Virus record (IMG/VR): IMGVR_UViG_3300004369_000178
Location: 1-21,467 of that record
From: a virus
Length of the DNA: 21,467 bases
Strand: one strand, 5' to 3'
Shown: positions 3,283 to 17,933 of the stretch, in pieces
Position numbering within the stretch: position 1 is the stretch's first letter
Layout: each line of letters starts with the position of its first letter
Made by a program: the position numbers and the translations under genes
The notes under the pieces: generated by a model
Databases searched by the model: none
Seen by the model: only the letters and a program-made list of their open reading frames with translations
What the model was told of the DNA's origin: nothing

Positions 3283-4219
3283 AAAATTCCTTTGGGTCGA
3301 AGAGTATCGACCTCGCAAACTGCAGGACTGTATTCTGCCCAAGAATATCAAGGAATCTTTTCAGGCATTCCTTGAACAAGGTGAGATTCCTAACCTGCTT
3401 CTAGCAGGAACTGCTGGTGTTGGCAAGACTACCGTAGCCAGGGCAGTCTGTGAGGAGATCGGTGCTTCCTATATCGTCATCAACGGGTCCGACGAGGGTC
3501 GTTTCCTAGACACGGTGAGGAACAAGGTCAAGCAGTTCGCTAGCACCGTCTCTCTCGCCTCTGGAGCGCCCCACAAGGTCGTTATCATCGATGAGGCAGA
3601 CAACACCACCAACGACGTGCAACTGTCCTTGAGGGCGGCTGTGGAGGAGTTTCACAGCAACTGTCGTTTCATTTTCACCTGCAACTTCCCAAACAAAATC
3701 ATCGAACCGCTGCATTCTCGCTGCACGGTGGTGGACTTTCGTGTCAAGAACGAAGCCAAGATGGAACTGCAGGGTCAGTTCTTCGTGCGTCTTAAGCAGA
3801 TCCTAAAGGAGAATGAGGTTGAGTGTGAAGACAAGATTCTTGTCAAGTTAATTCAACGTTACTATCCTGATTGGCGTCGTCTTATCAATGAGTGTCAGCG
3901 TCATGCTGCTACTGGTAAGATTGATACATCAATTTTGGTTGATATTGCTGACGTATCAGTCAATGATCTAGTCAGGTCTATGAAGAACAAAGAGTTTACC
4001 ACTGTCCGTAAGTGGGTTGTGGAAAACATTGACAATGATCCTAACATTGTCATCCGTAAGATCTATGACTGTTTGTATGAAAATCTCAAGGGTGCATCTA
4101 TTCCAGAGGCTGTTTTAATTCTGGCAAAGTATCAGTATCAGATTGCTTTTGTTGCTGACCAAGAGATCAATCTACTGGCATGTTTAACCGAGGTAATGAT
4201 GAGCTGTGAGTTTAAATAA
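3272..4219 (+). CDS. 44: Clamp loader large subunit gp44
   Basis: A 315-residue AAA+ protein (T4 gp44 is 319). It opens with the RFC-box-like FLWVEEYRPRKLQDC, followed by Walker A AGTAGVGKT (45-53), Walker B VVIIDEAD (103-110), sensor 1 TCNF (136-139) and the arginine-finger motif SRC (149-151). With gp62 it uses ATP to load the gp45 clamp. ATG 3272 and ATG 3275 are both possible; 3275 (MNKKFLWVEEYRP) fits the repeat-border interpretation better. Base composition changes inside the gene: bases 3421-3720 are 54% G+C (163/300, hand count) but 3841-4140 only 39% (116/300), a sign of mosaic origin. It ends TTTAAATAA. Confidence 0.95.
   Translation: MMNKKFLWVEEYRPRKLQDCILPKNIKESFQAFLEQGEIPNLLLAGTAGVGKTTVARAVCEEIGASYIVINGSDEGRFLDTVRNKVKQFASTVSLASGAPHKVVIIDEADNTTNDVQLSLRAAVEEFHSNCRFIFTCNFPNKIIEPLHSRCTVVDFRVKNEAKMELQGQFFVRLKQILKENEVECEDKILVKLIQRYYPDWRRLINECQRHAATGKIDTSILVDIADVSVNDLVRSMKNKEFTTVRKWVVENIDNDPNIVIRKIYDCLYENLKGASIPEAVLILAKYQYQIAFVADQEINLLACLTEVMMSCEFK
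3273..3279 (+). repeat. Direct repeat TGATGAA, right border of the YkgJ-like insertion
   Basis: Second copy of the repeat at 2807-2813. It contains ATG 3275, the second possible start of gp44. Collapsing the two copies would join the gp45 TGA directly to this ATG. Confidence 0.4.
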
Positions 4220-4739
4220 TAACTATAAAGTTCTTCGCAGATTCCTGGACCCAGAGGAAGCAGAAGCACTAGGAAAAGAATACATTGACTACTGTGAAAA
4301 GTATGTTGAAGTAAACGAAGATGGCAATCGCCAAAACTTTGGATACATTTCTTTCCTAGAACTGTTGGTGGCGAAGACGCCAGAAGTGAATTGGATACTT
4401 GGTGAAAAGGTATTGCCTACATACTGCTACGGTAGGGTGTATTACAATGGCAATATTCTCAAGCCACATGTAGACAGATTGGAAAGTGAAATAGCAATCA
4501 CGGTTCATCTATCATCTGATGAACCGTGGGATATATGGGTAAGAGATCCAAGTGGAAATAAAAATTACGTCACCTTGACATATGGTGACGCAATGATATA
4601 CAATGGTATGACGGCAGAACATGGTCGCGATCCCTTCAAGGGTCAGTATCATGCTAACGCATTCCTATTTTACAATAGAAGTAGGGGACAGTATTCTGTT
4701 CCGTGGAAACAACACTTAAGGAAAATAAATGAACACTAA
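4206..4739 (+). CDS. 2-oxoglutarate/Fe(II)-dependent oxygenase
   Basis: A 177-residue protein with the double-stranded beta-helix signature of 2OG-Fe(II) oxygenases: LKPHVDR gives the H-x-D pair (H88, D90), and TAEHGRDPF supplies the distal histidine (H139), followed by K145 as a possible 2-oxoglutarate ligand. Prolyl-hydroxylase-like members are common in cyanophages; substrates are mostly unknown. The start is GTG 4206, since no ATG precedes the domain; GAGG at 4190-4193 is a suitable ribosome-binding site. It overlaps the gp44 end by 14 bases and is the first gene of the block inserted between 44 and 62. Dam lies in the same block, so a nucleic-acid substrate is conceivable but speculative. 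Confidence 0.8.
   Translation: MSLNNNYKVLRRFLDPEEAEALGKEYIDYCEKYVEVNEDGNRQNFGYISFLELLVAKTPEVNWILGEKVLPTYCYGRVYYNGNILKPHVDRLESEIAITVHLSSDEPWDIWVRDPSGNKNYVTLTYGDAMIYNGMTAEHGRDPFKGQYHANAFLFYNRSRGQYSVPWKQHLRKINEH
4211..4220 (+). repeat. Direct repeat TTTAAATAAT, left border of the 44/62 insertion
   Basis: The repeat covers the last codons and stop of gp44 (Phe-Lys-stop). An identical 10-base copy lies at 6312-6321, across the junction with gp62. No third copy was seen by eye in the window. Confidence 0.5.
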
Positions 4740-7234: not shown

Positions 7235-7711
7235 ATGAATAAATACGCTTGGGACGTTTACTCTCCCTTCTATGTGGGATTGGATGATGTTTTCCACAGA
7301 CTCGAATCGATGACGAGTCATAACAAAAACTATCCGCCCTACAATTTAATCAAGCATGACACCGCTAATTACGAAATCGAAATCGCTTTGGCGGGCTTTA
7401 AAAAAGATGAGATCGAAGTATCTACTGAATCAAACATTCTCCGAGTTGCCAGCAAAGATACGAGAACAGATCCTAATGTCGAGTATCTCCACAAAGGATT
7501 ATCCAAGAGATCTTTCTTGAATACATGGCAACTATCTGATGATATTCGTGTGACTGATGTAGATTTTGCGGACGGTTTACTGCGTATTTCGCTGGAAAAA
7601 ATTATTCCAGAACACCAAAAGCGAATCACTTATACTATCGGTTCAACTAAAGATCCTCAATTCTTGACTGAAGATAGAAATTCAAATTTTCCTGGAGAAA
7701 ATACTCTATAA
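7235..7711 (+). CDS. Small heat-shock protein Hsp20
   Basis: A 158-residue alpha-crystallin-type chaperone. The alpha-crystallin domain spans roughly 33-133: PPYNLIKHDTANYEIEIALAGFKKDEI, ILRVASKD, then the hallmark DGLLRISL (113-120, G-x-L). An I-x-I-like motif (ITYTI, 131-135) follows. It binds unfolding proteins without ATP; cyanophage Hsp20 is thought to protect phage or host proteins during infection, with the target unknown. ATG 7235 is chosen because of AAGGAG eight bases upstream; the open frame further upstream crosses the promoter. It is expressed from its own unit between two terminators. A late-promoter motif overlaps its stop codon. Confidence 0.92.
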   Translation: MNKYAWDVYSPFYVGLDDVFHRLESMTSHNKNYPPYNLIKHDTANYEIEIALAGFKKDEIEVSTESNILRVASKDTRTDPNVEYLHKGLSKRSFLNTWQLSDDIRVTDVDFADGLLRISLEKIIPEHQKRITYTIGSTKDPQFLTEDRNSNFPGENTL

Positions 7712-13807: not shown

Positions 13808-14017
13808 ATGATCAACCTCCACGAACGCTACGGACACTACCTGAACAGCAACAGAAAACATGACATCACAGGTGAACGTGTCCTGGGTTACGGATGGGAA
13901 GATAATGGCAAGGACATTTGTGGGTATTATGTGCTCACTGAAAAACATAGAATGCTCTTTGACTTGTCGGGAGTATTCCAATACAAGGAAGGGTGGTCGA
14001 GTGGTTTAAGGCTCTAG
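13808..14017 (+). CDS. 69-aa hypothetical protein ending inside tRNA-Ser
   Basis: ATG 13808 directly follows the promoter and inverted repeat. The product has aromatic-rich strands (GYGWEDNGKDICGYYVLTEKHRMLFDLSGVFQY) and no recognised family. Its last ten codons and stop (TAG 14015-14017) are the first 31 bases of the tRNA gene, so the C-terminal residues GWSSGLRL are dictated by tRNA sequence. Either the tRNA was inserted and truncated an older protein, or the gene ended here by chance. RNase P cutting at 13986/13987 would leave an mRNA without a stop codon. Confidence 0.55.
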   Translation: MINLHERYGHYLNSNRKHDITGERVLGYGWEDNGKDICGYYVLTEKHRMLFDLSGVFQYKEGWSSGLRL

Positions 14018-14071
14018 TCTTGAAAACTAGCGAAGTGAGAGCTTCCGTGGGTTCGAATCCCACCCCTTCCG
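13987..14071 (+). tRNA. tRNA-Ser (anticodon UGA)
   Basis: A complete class II tRNA can be folded by eye. The acceptor stem is GGAAGGG (13987-13993) with CCCTTCC (14064-14070) and discriminator G 14071. The anticodon stem CTAGT/ACTAG encloses the loop CTTGAAA with anticodon TGA at 14021-14023. The long variable arm (14031-14046, GAAG/CTTC) is typical of serine tRNA, and the T arm is GTGGG-TTCGAAT-CCCAC. CCA is not encoded. It reads UCA and other UCN codons, probably supplementing the host supply for phage genes. Phage tRNAs are common in cyanomyoviruses. Confidence 0.95.
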
Positions 14072-14086
14072 TTTTGCGCTATGATA

Positions 14087-14119
14087 GGGGACACCTAAAT
14101 AAGGGTGATCCCCCTTTTT
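14087..14119 (+). terminator. Terminator after tRNA-Ser with a late promoter in its loop
   Basis: GGGGACACC (14087-14095) pairs with GGTG-a-TCCCC (14104-14113) with one bulged A; a T-run follows at 14115-14119. The loop holds TAAATAAG. It should end transcripts from the promoter at 13759. Confidence 0.75.
14095..14101 (+). promoter_or_regulatory. Late promoter-like motif CTAAATA
   Basis: CTAAATA, a variant of the T4 late TATAAATA, sits in the loop of the terminator, 24 bases before ATG 14126. The distance suits a late promoter for the ligase-like/NMNAT-like gene. No Shine-Dalgarno sequence precedes the ATG. Confidence 0.5.
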
Positions 14120-14125
14120 CTGTAG

Positions 14126-15901
14126 ATGGCAACCCAGAATAAGCACCTGGAGCACCTGGAGGACGAGCTTATTAATTATGGGTATAATGGATATGTCGCC
14201 TCTAGAGATCTAATTCAAAGCTTTATCGACGAACTTGGTGGCCGTCCTAGTGGTAACATAAAGGTTACTACCAAATGGGACGGCGCTCCAGCTGTGGTTT
14301 GTGGCATCGACCCAGAGAGCGGCAACTTCTTCGTTGGCACCAAGTCTGTATTCAACAAGAAAGAACCAAAGGTAAATTTTACCGAAGAAGATATTGATAA
14401 GAATCATGGCGAGATCCCTGACCTAGCCAAGAAACTGAAGTATTGTCTGAAGTATTTTCCTGAACTGAAAGTCAAGGGAGTTATTCAGGGAGATCTTCTC
14501 TTCACGGATGAAGACGTTCAGACGAAAACGATTGACGGAGAACGTTTTTATACTGCTACTCCCAACACGCTGACGTATGCTTGGCCTGTAGATAGCAATC
14601 TTGGTAAGGCAGTAAATACTGCCAAGATCGGTGCTGTATTCCACACGTATTACAGCGGTACGGGTCCAGTCAATACTTTGTCTGCTGGTTTTGGTGTTGA
14701 TAAGTTCAACCTGAAATCCACTCGTAATGTATTCCTGGCAACTGCTACTGTAGATAACATCAGCGCCAAGTCTGGTCTTACTACTTCTGAAGAGCGTGTG
14801 CTGAAGTCTGTTGTCTCTGTTGTTGAACGGAATGCTTCTATTGCAAAAGAGTTTCTTGAGATCATCGCTCACGAAGCAGGCAAGCAATTCACGCTTGGTT
14901 ATACGATGAAGCGTTTCACGAACTCTTATGTGAAAGAAGGTAAGACCATCACTAATGTAAATGCTTTTATTAGTGGTTTTACAAAAGCATTTGAGAAAGC
15001 ATTAGTAGAAAAGATTGAGAGTCTGAAAACTGAAAAGTCCAAGGCACAGTATCGTGATGTTCTTGCTGATGGCATCTCTTATCTAGAGAACAACAACAGA
15101 GCATTCAAAGCATTCGTCGTGATGTATAACTCCTTCACGAATGCCAAGAACCTGATCAACCTGAAGCTTGCTGGGTTGAGCGACACTCGTGTATTCCTTC
15201 GCAGCGGTGACAACTTTGTGGTGACGAAGCCTGAAGGTTTTGTTGCTATCGTTGATGGCAAGGCAGTCAAGATTGTTGATCGTCTTGAGTTCTCTCGTGC
15301 TAACTTCACGCTAGAGAAGTCCTGGCGTCCTCCTGCTGGTGAGGGTGCAAAGGTTGCTGTATTCACGTTTGGTAGGTTCAACCCTCCTACTACTGGTCAT
15401 GAGCTGTTGATAAATAAGGTTAAGGAGTATGCTGCTGGTAATGACTATTTTGTATTTCCTAGTCACACTGTAGACAAGAAAGGAAAGAACCCTTTGACTG
15501 CTGCACAGAAAGTATCTTTCATGCAGATAATGTTTCCTTCTCACAAGAATAATATCATTTTGGATGAAACCATTCGTGATGCTATCAAAGCGTTGAAGTG
15601 GTTAGAAGGAAAGGGATATACGGATGCTATCTTTGTTGTTGGTTCTGATCGTGTTCCTGCTTTCCAATTCATCAAAAAATATAATGGCAAAGACTATAAC
15701 ATGAATACTGTTGAGATAAAGAGTGCTGGAGAAAGAGATCCAGATGCGGATGATGTCTCTGGTATGTCTGCAAGTAAAGTTCGGAAGGCAATAACTGAAG
15801 GAGATTTTGCTGTTGTGGGAAGCGCATTACCAAATTCTGTAAAAACTGATTCTGACTTTAAGAAGATGTATATTCAAGCAGTATTAGAGGGAATGGCATG
15901 A
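14126..15901 (+). CDS. Ligase-like (DUF6267-type) and NMNAT-like nucleotidyltransferase fusion
   Basis: A 591-residue two-domain protein. The N-terminal part has KVTTKWDGAPAVVCG (46-60), a K-x-D-G motif like motif I of ATP-dependent ligases and capping enzymes (K50 as the candidate adenylated lysine), then FFVGTKSVF (68-76) and VIQGDLLF (119-126); this matches the pattern I associate with DUF6267. The C-terminal part begins FTFGRFNPPTTGH (413-425), the HxGH-type nucleotide site of NMNAT/cytidylyltransferases, and has GMSASKVR (546-553), the counterpart of the ISxTxxR motif. The middle (about 150-400) is unassigned. Late-type promoter context. Roles in nucleic-acid end repair, RNA capping or NAD metabolism are possible; none is shown. 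Confidence 0.75.
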   Translation: MATQNKHLEHLEDELINYGYNGYVASRDLIQSFIDELGGRPSGNIKVTTKWDGAPAVVCGIDPESGNFFVGTKSVFNKKEPKVNFTEEDIDKNHGEIPDLAKKLKYCLKYFPELKVKGVIQGDLLFTDEDVQTKTIDGERFYTATPNTLTYAWPVDSNLGKAVNTAKIGAVFHTYYSGTGPVNTLSAGFGVDKFNLKSTRNVFLATATVDNISAKSGLTTSEERVLKSVVSVVERNASIAKEFLEIIAHEAGKQFTLGYTMKRFTNSYVKEGKTITNVNAFISGFTKAFEKALVEKIESLKTEKSKAQYRDVLADGISYLENNNRAFKAFVVMYNSFTNAKNLINLKLAGLSDTRVFLRSGDNFVVTKPEGFVAIVDGKAVKIVDRLEFSRANFTLEKSWRPPAGEGAKVAVFTFGRFNPPTTGHELLINKVKEYAAGNDYFVFPSHTVDKKGKNPLTAAQKVSFMQIMFPSHKNNIILDETIRDAIKALKWLEGKGYTDAIFVVGSDRVPAFQFIKKYNGKDYNMNTVEIKSAGERDPDADDVSGMSASKVRKAITEGDFAVVGSALPNSVKTDSDFKKMYIQAVLEGMA

Positions 15902-17658
15902 CATACGACTTAAAAAAAGAATTAAGAACCATAAATGAGTTCATAGACATTGATATTGTTGCGACAAAAATTAGAAGACTATTAAAACTAGTTAATATTG
16001 CTGCAGCACATGCATTCAAAGAAATGTATAATGAATTAAATGGCTTTCTATATGAAATTGATGGTGGTAATTCTGATATAGATGATAGTTCATCGTTGAT
16101 GGAAATACAGAAGTATGTAACTAATAAAACCAGTGTTCCATTTCATTATAAGATGACATGCGACGATGGAAATGCTTCGTATTGTAATTTAAATTCTAGA
16201 ACTTCTAGAGAACAATACATTAAATCTATGATTGAGTTTATAAATGCTCGACCAATAAAAAGCAAACTCAATATAACAGACATGAAATTTAAAAGTGACA
16301 ATGGTAAAAATCCTAGACTATTCATTCAAATGAGATACTCTCATGATAAGATGAATGCAAAAGGAAAAATAGAATCTAAAAATACAAATTTAAATTTTAA
16401 TTTTGCTCTCAAGTATGCTGGTAGTGCTGCTGATGCAAAAAAACTAGAGTCTTTAAAACCCTCTAATGTTACACCATCAATTCTAGATCGATGGATGACT
16501 CCTGATGAAATGTATAGGACAGTAATATCATATATTAATGGAAATAGTTTTCCAGTTTCTAGTCCTTCTGTGAAAAAATCTTATACCGATGCTGTGTCTG
16601 ATTCTTTCAACAGTCCTTCTTTGAAAGATAACTTGGGTATCGCACCAGATTTATCTTCGGAGTTTTTTGAAATACTTTCTGCGCTGAAATTAGGTAAACT
16701 TCTTTCTCAAAATAATGCAATGATGAAAGAGATTGTGGGATATCCCGACGAACCAATAAAAAAAATAGAATTGAATATCCCTCAAGCAGCAAACGAAGCT
16801 TTGATAGATTACAAAGTTGCTGTTAATGGTGAAAGAAATAATCCATTAAAAATTAGTGTGAAATCTAAAGTACGAGGATCTTCTACTGCTACTGTTAAGT
16901 TTACTACTGCATTTGCTAATGAAGCAGAAGTACATACTTGGTTTAAAAATTTAAAATTTGCTAGAGCCAAAAATTATAATGTAGGACAAAGAATGATAGC
17001 TGCTTCTTCTCTTGAATATAAAAACTATAGTGGTCGAGGAACTTTATATCCAATCAGAGCAGTGAGAAAACTTTTCTCTGGTTCCAAAAGATCTGTGATA
17101 AGATCCGACTTTAATTCTGTTTTGAGCACATCTTCAATGTCTATTGATGACTTTTATAAAGTAATTTCAATTCTCGATAAACAAATTTCTAGTGTTTCTA
17201 AAAATTACGAAGAATTGGATAACATGATATCTGATGAGAAACTGCTTCTCAAATCGAAAAACTTTATTGCGGATAATCTTTTCAAAGAACCGAGTAAGGC
17301 AAAGAAATTGAGAGAGAGTGTTCGTATGACAAAGGAAGATGCTGAAAAACATAGTCCCAATAATAAGTATACTTTTACGTTGAACAACATGGCATTACTG
17401 TGCGAGAGAGTGTTAGTTAGATCATCACAAAGAGATAGTAAGTCTAAATTTAATTTTTATAAATTATTTTATGATCAGGTCTTAAAAAAAGAAGCAGTGG
17501 TTTATGCTGTAACAAAAGTAGATGATAGTGGTCCTGAAGAAAAATTAGAGTACACTTTTAATAGTGCTAGAAATTTTAAACAGTATCAAAAATGGATTTC
17601 GTTGAGAACCAAAAATTATGCTAACAATTTACAAGATGCTTTGGGAATGGCGGTATGA
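15898..17658 (+). CDS. 586-aa AT-rich hypothetical protein
   Basis: It starts in an ATGA overlap with the previous gene and ends in an ATGA overlap with the next. Base composition is very different from its neighbour: 29% G+C over 16201-16500 (88/300) against 45% over 14281-14580 (135/300), by hand count. The protein is rich in Lys, Asn and Ser, soluble, with no signal peptide or membrane segment seen. LIDYKVAVNG ... LKISVKSK (302-324) faintly resembles a PD-(D/E)xK nuclease core (D304, K322), but the usual acidic residue before the lysine is a serine, so I do not assign it. It may be a foreign gene placed in the late region. Confidence 0.7.
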   Translation: MTYDLKKELRTINEFIDIDIVATKIRRLLKLVNIAAAHAFKEMYNELNGFLYEIDGGNSDIDDSSSLMEIQKYVTNKTSVPFHYKMTCDDGNASYCNLNSRTSREQYIKSMIEFINARPIKSKLNITDMKFKSDNGKNPRLFIQMRYSHDKMNAKGKIESKNTNLNFNFALKYAGSAADAKKLESLKPSNVTPSILDRWMTPDEMYRTVISYINGNSFPVSSPSVKKSYTDAVSDSFNSPSLKDNLGIAPDLSSEFFEILSALKLGKLLSQNNAMMKEIVGYPDEPIKKIELNIPQAANEALIDYKVAVNGERNNPLKISVKSKVRGSSTATVKFTTAFANEAEVHTWFKNLKFARAKNYNVGQRMIAASSLEYKNYSGRGTLYPIRAVRKLFSGSKRSVIRSDFNSVLSTSSMSIDDFYKVISILDKQISSVSKNYEELDNMISDEKLLLKSKNFIADNLFKEPSKAKKLRESVRMTKEDAEKHSPNNKYTFTLNNMALLCERVLVRSSQRDSKSKFNFYKLFYDQVLKKEAVVYAVTKVDDSGPEEKLEYTFNSARNFKQYQKWISLRTKNYANNLQDALGMAV

Positions 17659-17933
17659 AAAATTTTAGAAAACTACGAGAAGAAGCACTGCGTCAGCAAC
17701 ATAGACACGGTGATGTCTTTGCGGAGGGTGATGTAATCATGTCATCTATTACGGGCGAGAAAGGTACAATTCACCGCGCTGGTGTCAATTATGTTATTGC
17801 AATCACGGAGTCTGGAGACATGTTCCGTGCATGGATTAAGGATGTGCGGCACGTTAACGTGACGGACACTATAAATAAAGAAAGGAAAAGTAGTAGTATT
17901 TTCAACAATGGAAAGACAAAAACCAGTCAATAG
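17655..17933 (+). CDS. 92-aa protein with a KOW/SH3-like domain
   Basis: After a basic helix (MKNFRKLREEALRQQ) comes VFAEGDVIMSSITGEKGTIHR, then GVNYVIAITESGDMFRAWI: a strand-GD-strand-turn-strand pattern like KOW or SH3 barrels. The last ~20 residues (TDTINKERKSSS...) are low in complexity and are read across a late-promoter motif (17870-17877) and into the next gene, a 26-base overlap. Probably a virion or assembly accessory protein by position. Coupled to the 586-aa gene by ATGA. Confidence 0.6.
   Translation: MKNFRKLREEALRQQHRHGDVFAEGDVIMSSITGEKGTIHRAGVNYVIAITESGDMFRAWIKDVRHVNVTDTINKERKSSSIFNNGKTKTSQ
17870..17877 (+). promoter_or_regulatory. T4-type late promoter motif TATAAATA
   Basis: A perfect TATAAATA lies inside the 3' end of the 92-aa gene, 30 bases before ATG 17908. 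The spacing suits a late promoter for the probable structural gene that follows. AGGA at 17883-17886 is too far from the ATG to be its ribosome-binding site. Confidence 0.65.

Follow-up and report, generated by a model that had tools for sequence, protein, structure and literature searches.

A predicted ligase-fold domain, DUF6267, is linked and repeatedly fused to a HIGH-superfamily nucleotidyltransferase in T4-like cyanophages

Analyzing a window of 21,467 nucleotides of T4-like cyanophage DNA (the whole stretch studied here), close to that of Synechococcus phage S-PM2, we found a single gene for a 591–amino acid protein in which DUF6267, titled "family of unknown function" in Pfam, is joined to a nucleotidyltransferase of the HIGH superfamily. 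On the basis of its motifs and modeled structure, DUF6267 can now be assigned a predicted function at the level of the superfamily, which turns it into a directly testable family. The explanation that we consider best, although its probability falls slightly short of even, is that an end-sealing enzyme and a dinucleotide-forming partner work together within a repair module. The computationally supported part of this explanation comprises the gene, its motifs, both folds, the linkage of the two halves, their repeated fusion, and a leader found in relatives.

A two-domain gene downstream of a serine tRNA

The first-pass annotation had described a fusion gene, and this was borne out: The frame is real, and Pfam places DUF6267 and CTP_transf_like (residues 414 to 554, 4.5e-6) within one 591–amino acid product (Table 1). 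The reverse strand across 14126-15901 contains stops throughout. The S-PM2d138 counterpart is 93.4% identical to the window protein, along which the PHROG matches run in the order phrog_455 (unknown), phrog_3041, and phrog_395 (cytidyltransferase). The strings singled out in the annotation, KWDG at K50, PPTTGH at residues 420 to 425, and GMSASKVR at residues 546 to 553, are all present, and their conservation argues against chance occurrence. A PADLOC search, run to probe a role as a defense system, left the window protein unmatched.

A late-type promoter had also been proposed ahead of the gene, and this claim fell. Exact copies of TATAAATA occur in the window at 7707, 17870, and 19486 only. 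The element in front of the gene, CCTAAATA, differs from it at two positions and makes up the loop of a hairpin that resembles a terminator, with a T run behind it; the hairpin directly follows tRNA-Ser(UGA). The tRNA occupies the same place in S-PM2, S-H9-2, S-RIM32, and the relative L010, and the hairpin after it is conserved in the same four. This tRNA lies outside the main tRNA cluster and is missing from the S-PM2 and S-H9-2 annotations that we saw.

Table 1. Coordinates of the gene, its domains and motifs, and flanking features in the window.
Feature	Position	Strand	Details
tRNA-Ser(UGA)	13987..14071	+	Just upstream of the 591-aa gene
Terminator-like hairpin and T run	14087..14120	+	z -2.25; between tRNA-Ser and the gene
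Two-domain gene, DUF6267 and HIGH-superfamily nucleotidyltransferase	14126..15901	+	Single open frame, 591 aa
DUF6267 domain, residues 5-398	14138..15319	+	Pfam 5e-111; AlphaFold; VIA-align
Motif I, K50-W-D-G, proposed nucleotidylated lysine	14273..14284	+	K50, D52, G53 invariant in 83/83 and 80/80
Motif III-like, Q121-G-D123	14486..14494	+	Invariant in 80; on strand 119-127
Motif IIIa-like, VFHTYY (H173, Y176)	14636..14653	+	H173, Y176 invariant; strand 168-177
Motif IV-like, E370-G-F-V373	15233..15244	+	E370, G371, V373 invariant
Motif V-like, K382-I-V-D-R386	15269..15283	+	K382, R386 invariant
HIGH-superfamily nucleotidyltransferase domain, residues 409-591	15350..15898	+	Pfam, PHROG, structure matches
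TTGH nucleotide-binding signature, residues 422-425	15389..15400	+	H425 53/53; T422 51/53
SASKVR signature, residues 548-553	15767..15784	+	S548, R553 53/53
586-aa neighbor	15898..17658	+	Overlaps the stop of the 591-aa gene by ATGA
Small gene, homologous to C-terminal part of virion-type cytidyltransferases	17655..17933	+	MKNFRKLREEA, loosely leader-like

DUF6267 carries the motif series of covalent nucleotidyltransferases

Within DUF6267, motifs I (KWDGAP), III (QGD), IIIa (VFHT), IV (EGFV), and V (KIVDR) follow each other in the order of covalent nucleotidyltransferases. Their names were assigned by manual mapping onto T4 Rnl2, in which the corresponding motifs are K35-I-H-G, F-G-E99, F119-D120, E204-G-Y-V, and K225-C-K. 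Motif I has the superfamily form KxDG/KxxG with an invariant lysine, and motifs III, IV, and V lie in order on strands of the structural model. Motif III of these enzymes usually ends in glutamate (GE); in DUF6267, aspartate replaces it. We aligned 80 homologs from viral contigs, mostly 31 to 47% identical to the window protein, and found H7, H10, E12, K50, D52, G53, P55, K73, Q121-G122-D123, H173, Y176, E370, G371, V373, K382, and R386 to be invariant; a joint alignment of both halves held 83 DUF6267 and 53 cytidyltransferase rows. Motifs I, IV, and V are also kept in S-SM1, S-CREM2, Stenotrophomonas phage DLP_6, and Methylophilales phage Melnitz-1, as is motif III, save for QAD instead of QGD in S-SM1.

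The aspartate in motif III, together with a large helical insertion in the domain, would fit a DUF6267 that is ligase-like in fold yet noncatalytic and acts as a nucleotide-binding or structural partner. We give this little credence, since every catalytic-type residue is invariant in the 80 sequences despite their divergence, and nearly all are retained in versions of 295 to 324 amino acids that have lost the insertion.

The predicted fold of DUF6267 resembles RNA ligases

We modeled DUF6267 with AlphaFold from a DUF-only alignment (pLDDT 90.6, pTM 0.86). An earlier form of the model, built from the joint alignment, was poor at residues 366 to 406 because DUF-only rows had slid into the C-terminal half, and the DUF-only alignment repaired this region. 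In the model, strand 45-50 leads to a turn at K50 and on to strand 56-61, EGFV lies on strand 371-376 and K382 on strand 379-383, and the long helical insertion (residues ~212 to 349, ~130 amino acids) separates motifs IIIa and IV.

Nucleic-acid ligases filled all of the 25 best VIA-align rows, and 23 of these were RNA ligases. At the top stood the Naegleria RNA ligase with a Z score of 8.6 (3.6 Å, 185 residues), a value within the range attainable without kinship, followed by T4 Rnl2 (7.2), T4 Rnl1 (7.1), RNA editing ligase 1 (7.0), and Trl1 (7.0); further rows included archaeal RNA ligases and human DNA ligase 1 (6.4). Foldseek alone returned no ligase match for the model and placed unrelated helical proteins on top, hmmsearch of the PDB with the DUF6267 profile gave coiled-coil noise and no ligase, and hhalign found no match between the DUF6267 and T4 Rnl2 profiles. 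Given the moderate Z scores and these negatives, the case for a ligase rests on the motifs and on the coherence of the structural matches, and we grade the evidence for a nucleotidyltransferase fold as moderate because Foldseek alone was negative. On this evidence, DUF6267 is very probably a ligase-fold domain, and the lysine that had been put forward as nucleotide-accepting, K50, falls inside that predicted fold.

DUF6267 shares its core fold and the I-III-IIIa-IV-V order with Naegleria Rnl, T4 Rnl2, T4 Rnl1, and Trl1 and, like them, has no C-terminal OB domain past motif V. It differs from these enzymes in lacking detectable sequence or profile similarity to them, in carrying QGD in place of GE, an N-terminal HLxHxED element, and the insertion between motifs IIIa and IV, and, in the window protein, in being fused to a HIGH nucleotidyltransferase. 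Matches to the domain came from 469 phage records searched, most of them cyanophages, and from over 590 stretches of viral contigs, while a literature search retrieved no paper that names it. A cellular origin found no support: The 36 matches in the genome contig set all fell on assembled contigs, almost every one of which belonged to a metagenome or single-cell bin, and the neighboring genes had a phage-like appearance where read.

The C-terminal half is a HIGH-superfamily nucleotidyltransferase with more than one candidate substrate

With the whole model as query, Foldseek matched NadD, NadM, and PPAT (best E 1.2e-4), and VIA-align scored the C-terminal half at 13.8 against PPAT and 13.3 against NMNATs, a tie (Z 12 to 14 across PPAT, NadD, and NadM). 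The half combines a Rossmann fold with the (T/H)xGH and SxxxxR signatures of the HIGH superfamily, in agreement with the architecture first proposed. The original label HxGH was correct for GH and wrong at the first position, which is threonine in 51 of the 53 rows and histidine in 2. TxGH is the PPAT form of the signature. As TxGH, S548, R553, and also K551 are conserved among the cytidyltransferase rows, the half is likely to be catalytically active, a prediction drawn from the alignment.

The designation NMNAT-type, in turn, fits the fold and is unproved for the specificity. The best NCBIfam models, NadR (2.6e-5) and NadD (6.9e-5), scored far under their curated cut-offs (TIGR01526, 23.6 versus 341 bits; TIGR00482, 23.0 versus 112 bits); with the PPAT tie, this leaves NMNAT as just one option. 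The C-terminal half has the fold, (T/H)xGH, and SxSKxR in common with NadD, NadM, NadR, and CoaD. It is set apart from the NMNAT/PPAT families by TxGH, by scores under every curated cut-off, and by the lack of a Nudix or NadR kinase domain in the window protein.

The cytidyltransferase annotation, the PPAT tie, and the TxGH form would suit an enzyme making CDP- or ADP-activated compounds of the CoA, sugar, or glycerol type, which DUF6267 would then place on phage DNA or protein ends. The neighbors, however, are nucleic-acid and nucleotide enzymes, with no sugar or lipid genes among them, and we consider such a role quite improbable. A different possibility, raised in the first-pass annotation, is that the C-terminal half rebuilds NAD+ in the face of an NAD-depleting host defense, with the ligase half handling a nucleotide or modifying a target. 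NadR and NadD are the top NCBIfam models, and in phages, HIGH-superfamily NMNATs function in NAD+ salvage (PMC9503650). Phages with NadM also have NadV (PMC9503650), but a NadV-type phosphoribosyltransferase was not noticed in the window. Considering as well that the NadR and NadD scores are so low and that salvage needs no ligase fold, we regard NAD+ reconstitution as unlikely.

The two halves are neighbors in most cyanophages and were fused at least twice

Most cyanophages, such as S-H9-2, S-RIM32, and S-SM1, encode the halves as separate neighboring genes, while HTVC008M has at least one gene between them. S-CREM2 is a counterexample, with the DUF6267 and cytidyltransferase genes 65 kb apart. 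Among the 149 DUF6267 loci fetched first, many of which are S-PM2–like, fusion accounted for 57 and direct adjacency for 44; in the rest, the genes lay further apart or ran off the contig end. A tree of 55 DUF6267 domains placed fusions on well-supported branches in two separate clades, that of S-PM2 and that of the relative L060. Fusion happened at least twice independently. In one S-PM2–like genome (IMG/VR 638275561, 196,280 bases; locus L053, 6001-7780), the fused gene appears as overlapping frames of 192 and 436 amino acids; the gene is one intact frame in LN828717, an S-PM2 deletion mutant, and the split may be a sequencing error.

Lasting proximity and two fusions would both be accounted for if DUF6267 used NAD+ and an NMNAT-like half remade NAD+ from NMN and ATP, thereby sparing it. 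LigA takes AMP from NAD+, and the conserved H7/H10/E12/D13 element ahead of motif I sits at what we take to be the position of the NMN-binding Ia domain in LigA. Nevertheless, our analysis yielded no sequence or fold link between this element and the Ia domain, and PPAT fits the C-terminal half equally, which makes NAD+ recycling an improbable reason for the pairing.

Neighboring genes point to a possible nucleotide and RNA-end repair module

In relatives, the cytidyltransferase is also fused to a Pol-beta nucleotidyltransferase (L088 and L126), to an AAA_33/zeta-type P-loop kinase (L084 and L067), or to a RimK ATP-grasp domain (L131). The last protein (L131, 5537-8674; 1045 amino acids) consists of cytidyltransferase, RimK-type ATP-grasp, and Zn_protease-type (retropepsin-like) domains. 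Genes nearby encode an adenylate-kinase–like protein (PF00406, 3e-40), zeta/AAA_33 (PNK/zeta-like) kinases, an NT5C nucleotidase, and a HAD protein weakly matching the RNA-repair family HAD_SAK_1. Phage RNA-repair sets described by Iyer and colleagues consist of an RNA ligase, PNK, a phosphoesterase, and a Pol-beta nucleotidyltransferase (PMC7824862), and the ligase-fold DUF6267 likewise adjoins kinase, HAD, and Pol-beta nucleotidyltransferase genes in relatives. The accessible portion of that article mentions neither DUF6267 nor its HIGH nucleotidyltransferase, and the Pol-beta domain of the relatives matched PF01909, in contrast to the RlaP-type enzyme of the sets presented there. Among the loci examined, no complete partner set was found in one phage, and no partner protein reached the cut-off for a named RNA-repair family.

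In the explanation that we tentatively favor, an end-sealing enzyme with a dinucleotide-forming partner, we infer the chemistry, RNA as target, the substrate of the C-terminal half, and injection. K50 of DUF6267 would attack ATP (or NAD+) to form lysyl-AMP, and the AMP would then be moved to a 5'-phosphate end, most likely of RNA, so that the break is sealed. RNA is favored as the target because the nearest folds and the neighbors are of the RNA-repair type. The TxGH/SxSKxR half would link AMP with a small phosphorylated molecule, for which a pyridine mononucleotide is the likeliest candidate, to form an NAD-type dinucleotide, and may perhaps recycle a by-product of the ligase. Both halves would belong to a nucleotide and RNA-end repair module, to which relatives add kinases, HAD phosphatases, and a Pol-beta nucleotidyltransferase.

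The 586–amino acid neighbor in the window has homologs immediately ahead of DUF6267 in L148 (1401-2765), L127 (3688-5001), and L098 (3607-4995). By eye, its conserved E258, D304, and S320-V-K322 resemble a PD-(D/E)XK nuclease. Relatives of the small gene at 17655-17933 are misannotated as ribonucleotide reductase subunits, and the PHROG label "ferrochelatase" for 4206-4739 of the window is doubtful, as the product looks by eye like a small enzyme of the 2OG-Fe(II) oxygenase type.

Relatives carry a capsid-targeting leader that is absent from the window protein

A capsid-targeting sequence takes the internal proteins of T4 into the prohead (PMC3012670 and PMC5694885); IPII and IPIII begin with MKTYQEFIAEA. 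Many DUF6267 and cytidyltransferase proteins have similar starts of the common form MKxFxxFLxE(A), such as MKKFQDYLVE, MQSFLTFLTE, MNNFNQFLTE, and MKSFLQFISEA. The pattern was composed after such examples had been seen and the sequences are related, so the following counts are descriptive: It was present in 35 of 74 DUF6267 proteins with an N-terminal extension (shuffled expectation, 1.0), 22 of 77 cytidyltransferases (0.4), 10 of 119 genes directly upstream (0.3), and 19 of 303 among the next four genes (0.5), compared to 5 of 739 elsewhere (2.1) and none of the 38 DUF6267 proteins of the S-PM2/cyanophage type.

Virion proteomes agree with this pattern. The S-SM1 cytidylyltransferase T4-GC190 (gp190; MKKFSAFLNEA) was detected in virions by mass spectrometry (PMC3037559), as was S-CREM2 gp154 (MKNFSSFLTEA; PMC10665884, Table 3). 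Thus, both leader-bearing cytidyltransferases that we checked against published proteomes, as far as these were accessible, were found. In the accessible S-CREM2 data, a SAM hydrolase (MKDFDSFLEE) and an APH-like kinase (MKRFDAFLTEE) of the virion also match, and four of six frames bearing the pattern were detected, compared with 46 of the 211 frames without it (Fisher p 0.026); the DUF6267 protein, which is leaderless, does not appear there. The S-CREM2 authors propose virion-borne kinases and cytidyltransferases, with a caution about copurification, and the accessible text makes no mention of a leader (PMC10665884). The leader supplies a sequence-based rule for predicting the cyanophage enzymes that travel in the virion, and this rule fits an existing proteome. 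The leader is alike in T4 IPII/IPIII, S-SM1 gp190, and S-CREM2 gp154; in contrast to T4, the putative cyanophage cargo is made up of nucleotide enzymes rather than small inhibitors.

The window protein starts with MATQNKHLEHLED and has no capsid-targeting leader of the T4 internal-protein type. Because the supposed promoter is a terminator loop as well, packaging of this protein is not predicted. The first-pass annotation had tied the gene to virion formation; the leaders and virion proteomes of relatives support such a tie indirectly, whereas the window protein itself gives no ground for it. In many marine T4-like phages, leader-bearing members of the module would be injected with the DNA. 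The S-PM2 lineage has the two enzymes fused and lacks the leader, and its protein probably functions within infected cells. A broader scenario, which we consider possible but doubtful, is that marine T4-like phages pack, through capsid-targeting leaders of the T4 type, a set of enzymes acting on nucleotides and RNA ends and inject them, so that RNA or pools of nucleotides would be repaired as soon as infection begins, and that the S-PM2 lineage fused two of them for expression in the cell. The set would comprise the DUF6267 ligase, the HIGH adenylyltransferase, adenylate-kinase–like and PNK-like kinases, a HAD phosphatase, and a Pol-beta nucleotidyltransferase.

Leader-bearing P-loop kinase genes lie next to DUF6267 in L092 (6480-7043; adenylate-kinase–like), L123 (1244-1831), L147 (4464-5048), and L157 (7191-7769). 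In the Cas9-like gp12 listed for the S-CREM2 virion in the accessible data (L226, 7704-10313), LRFASFMAEA occurs ~16 residues past the annotated start.
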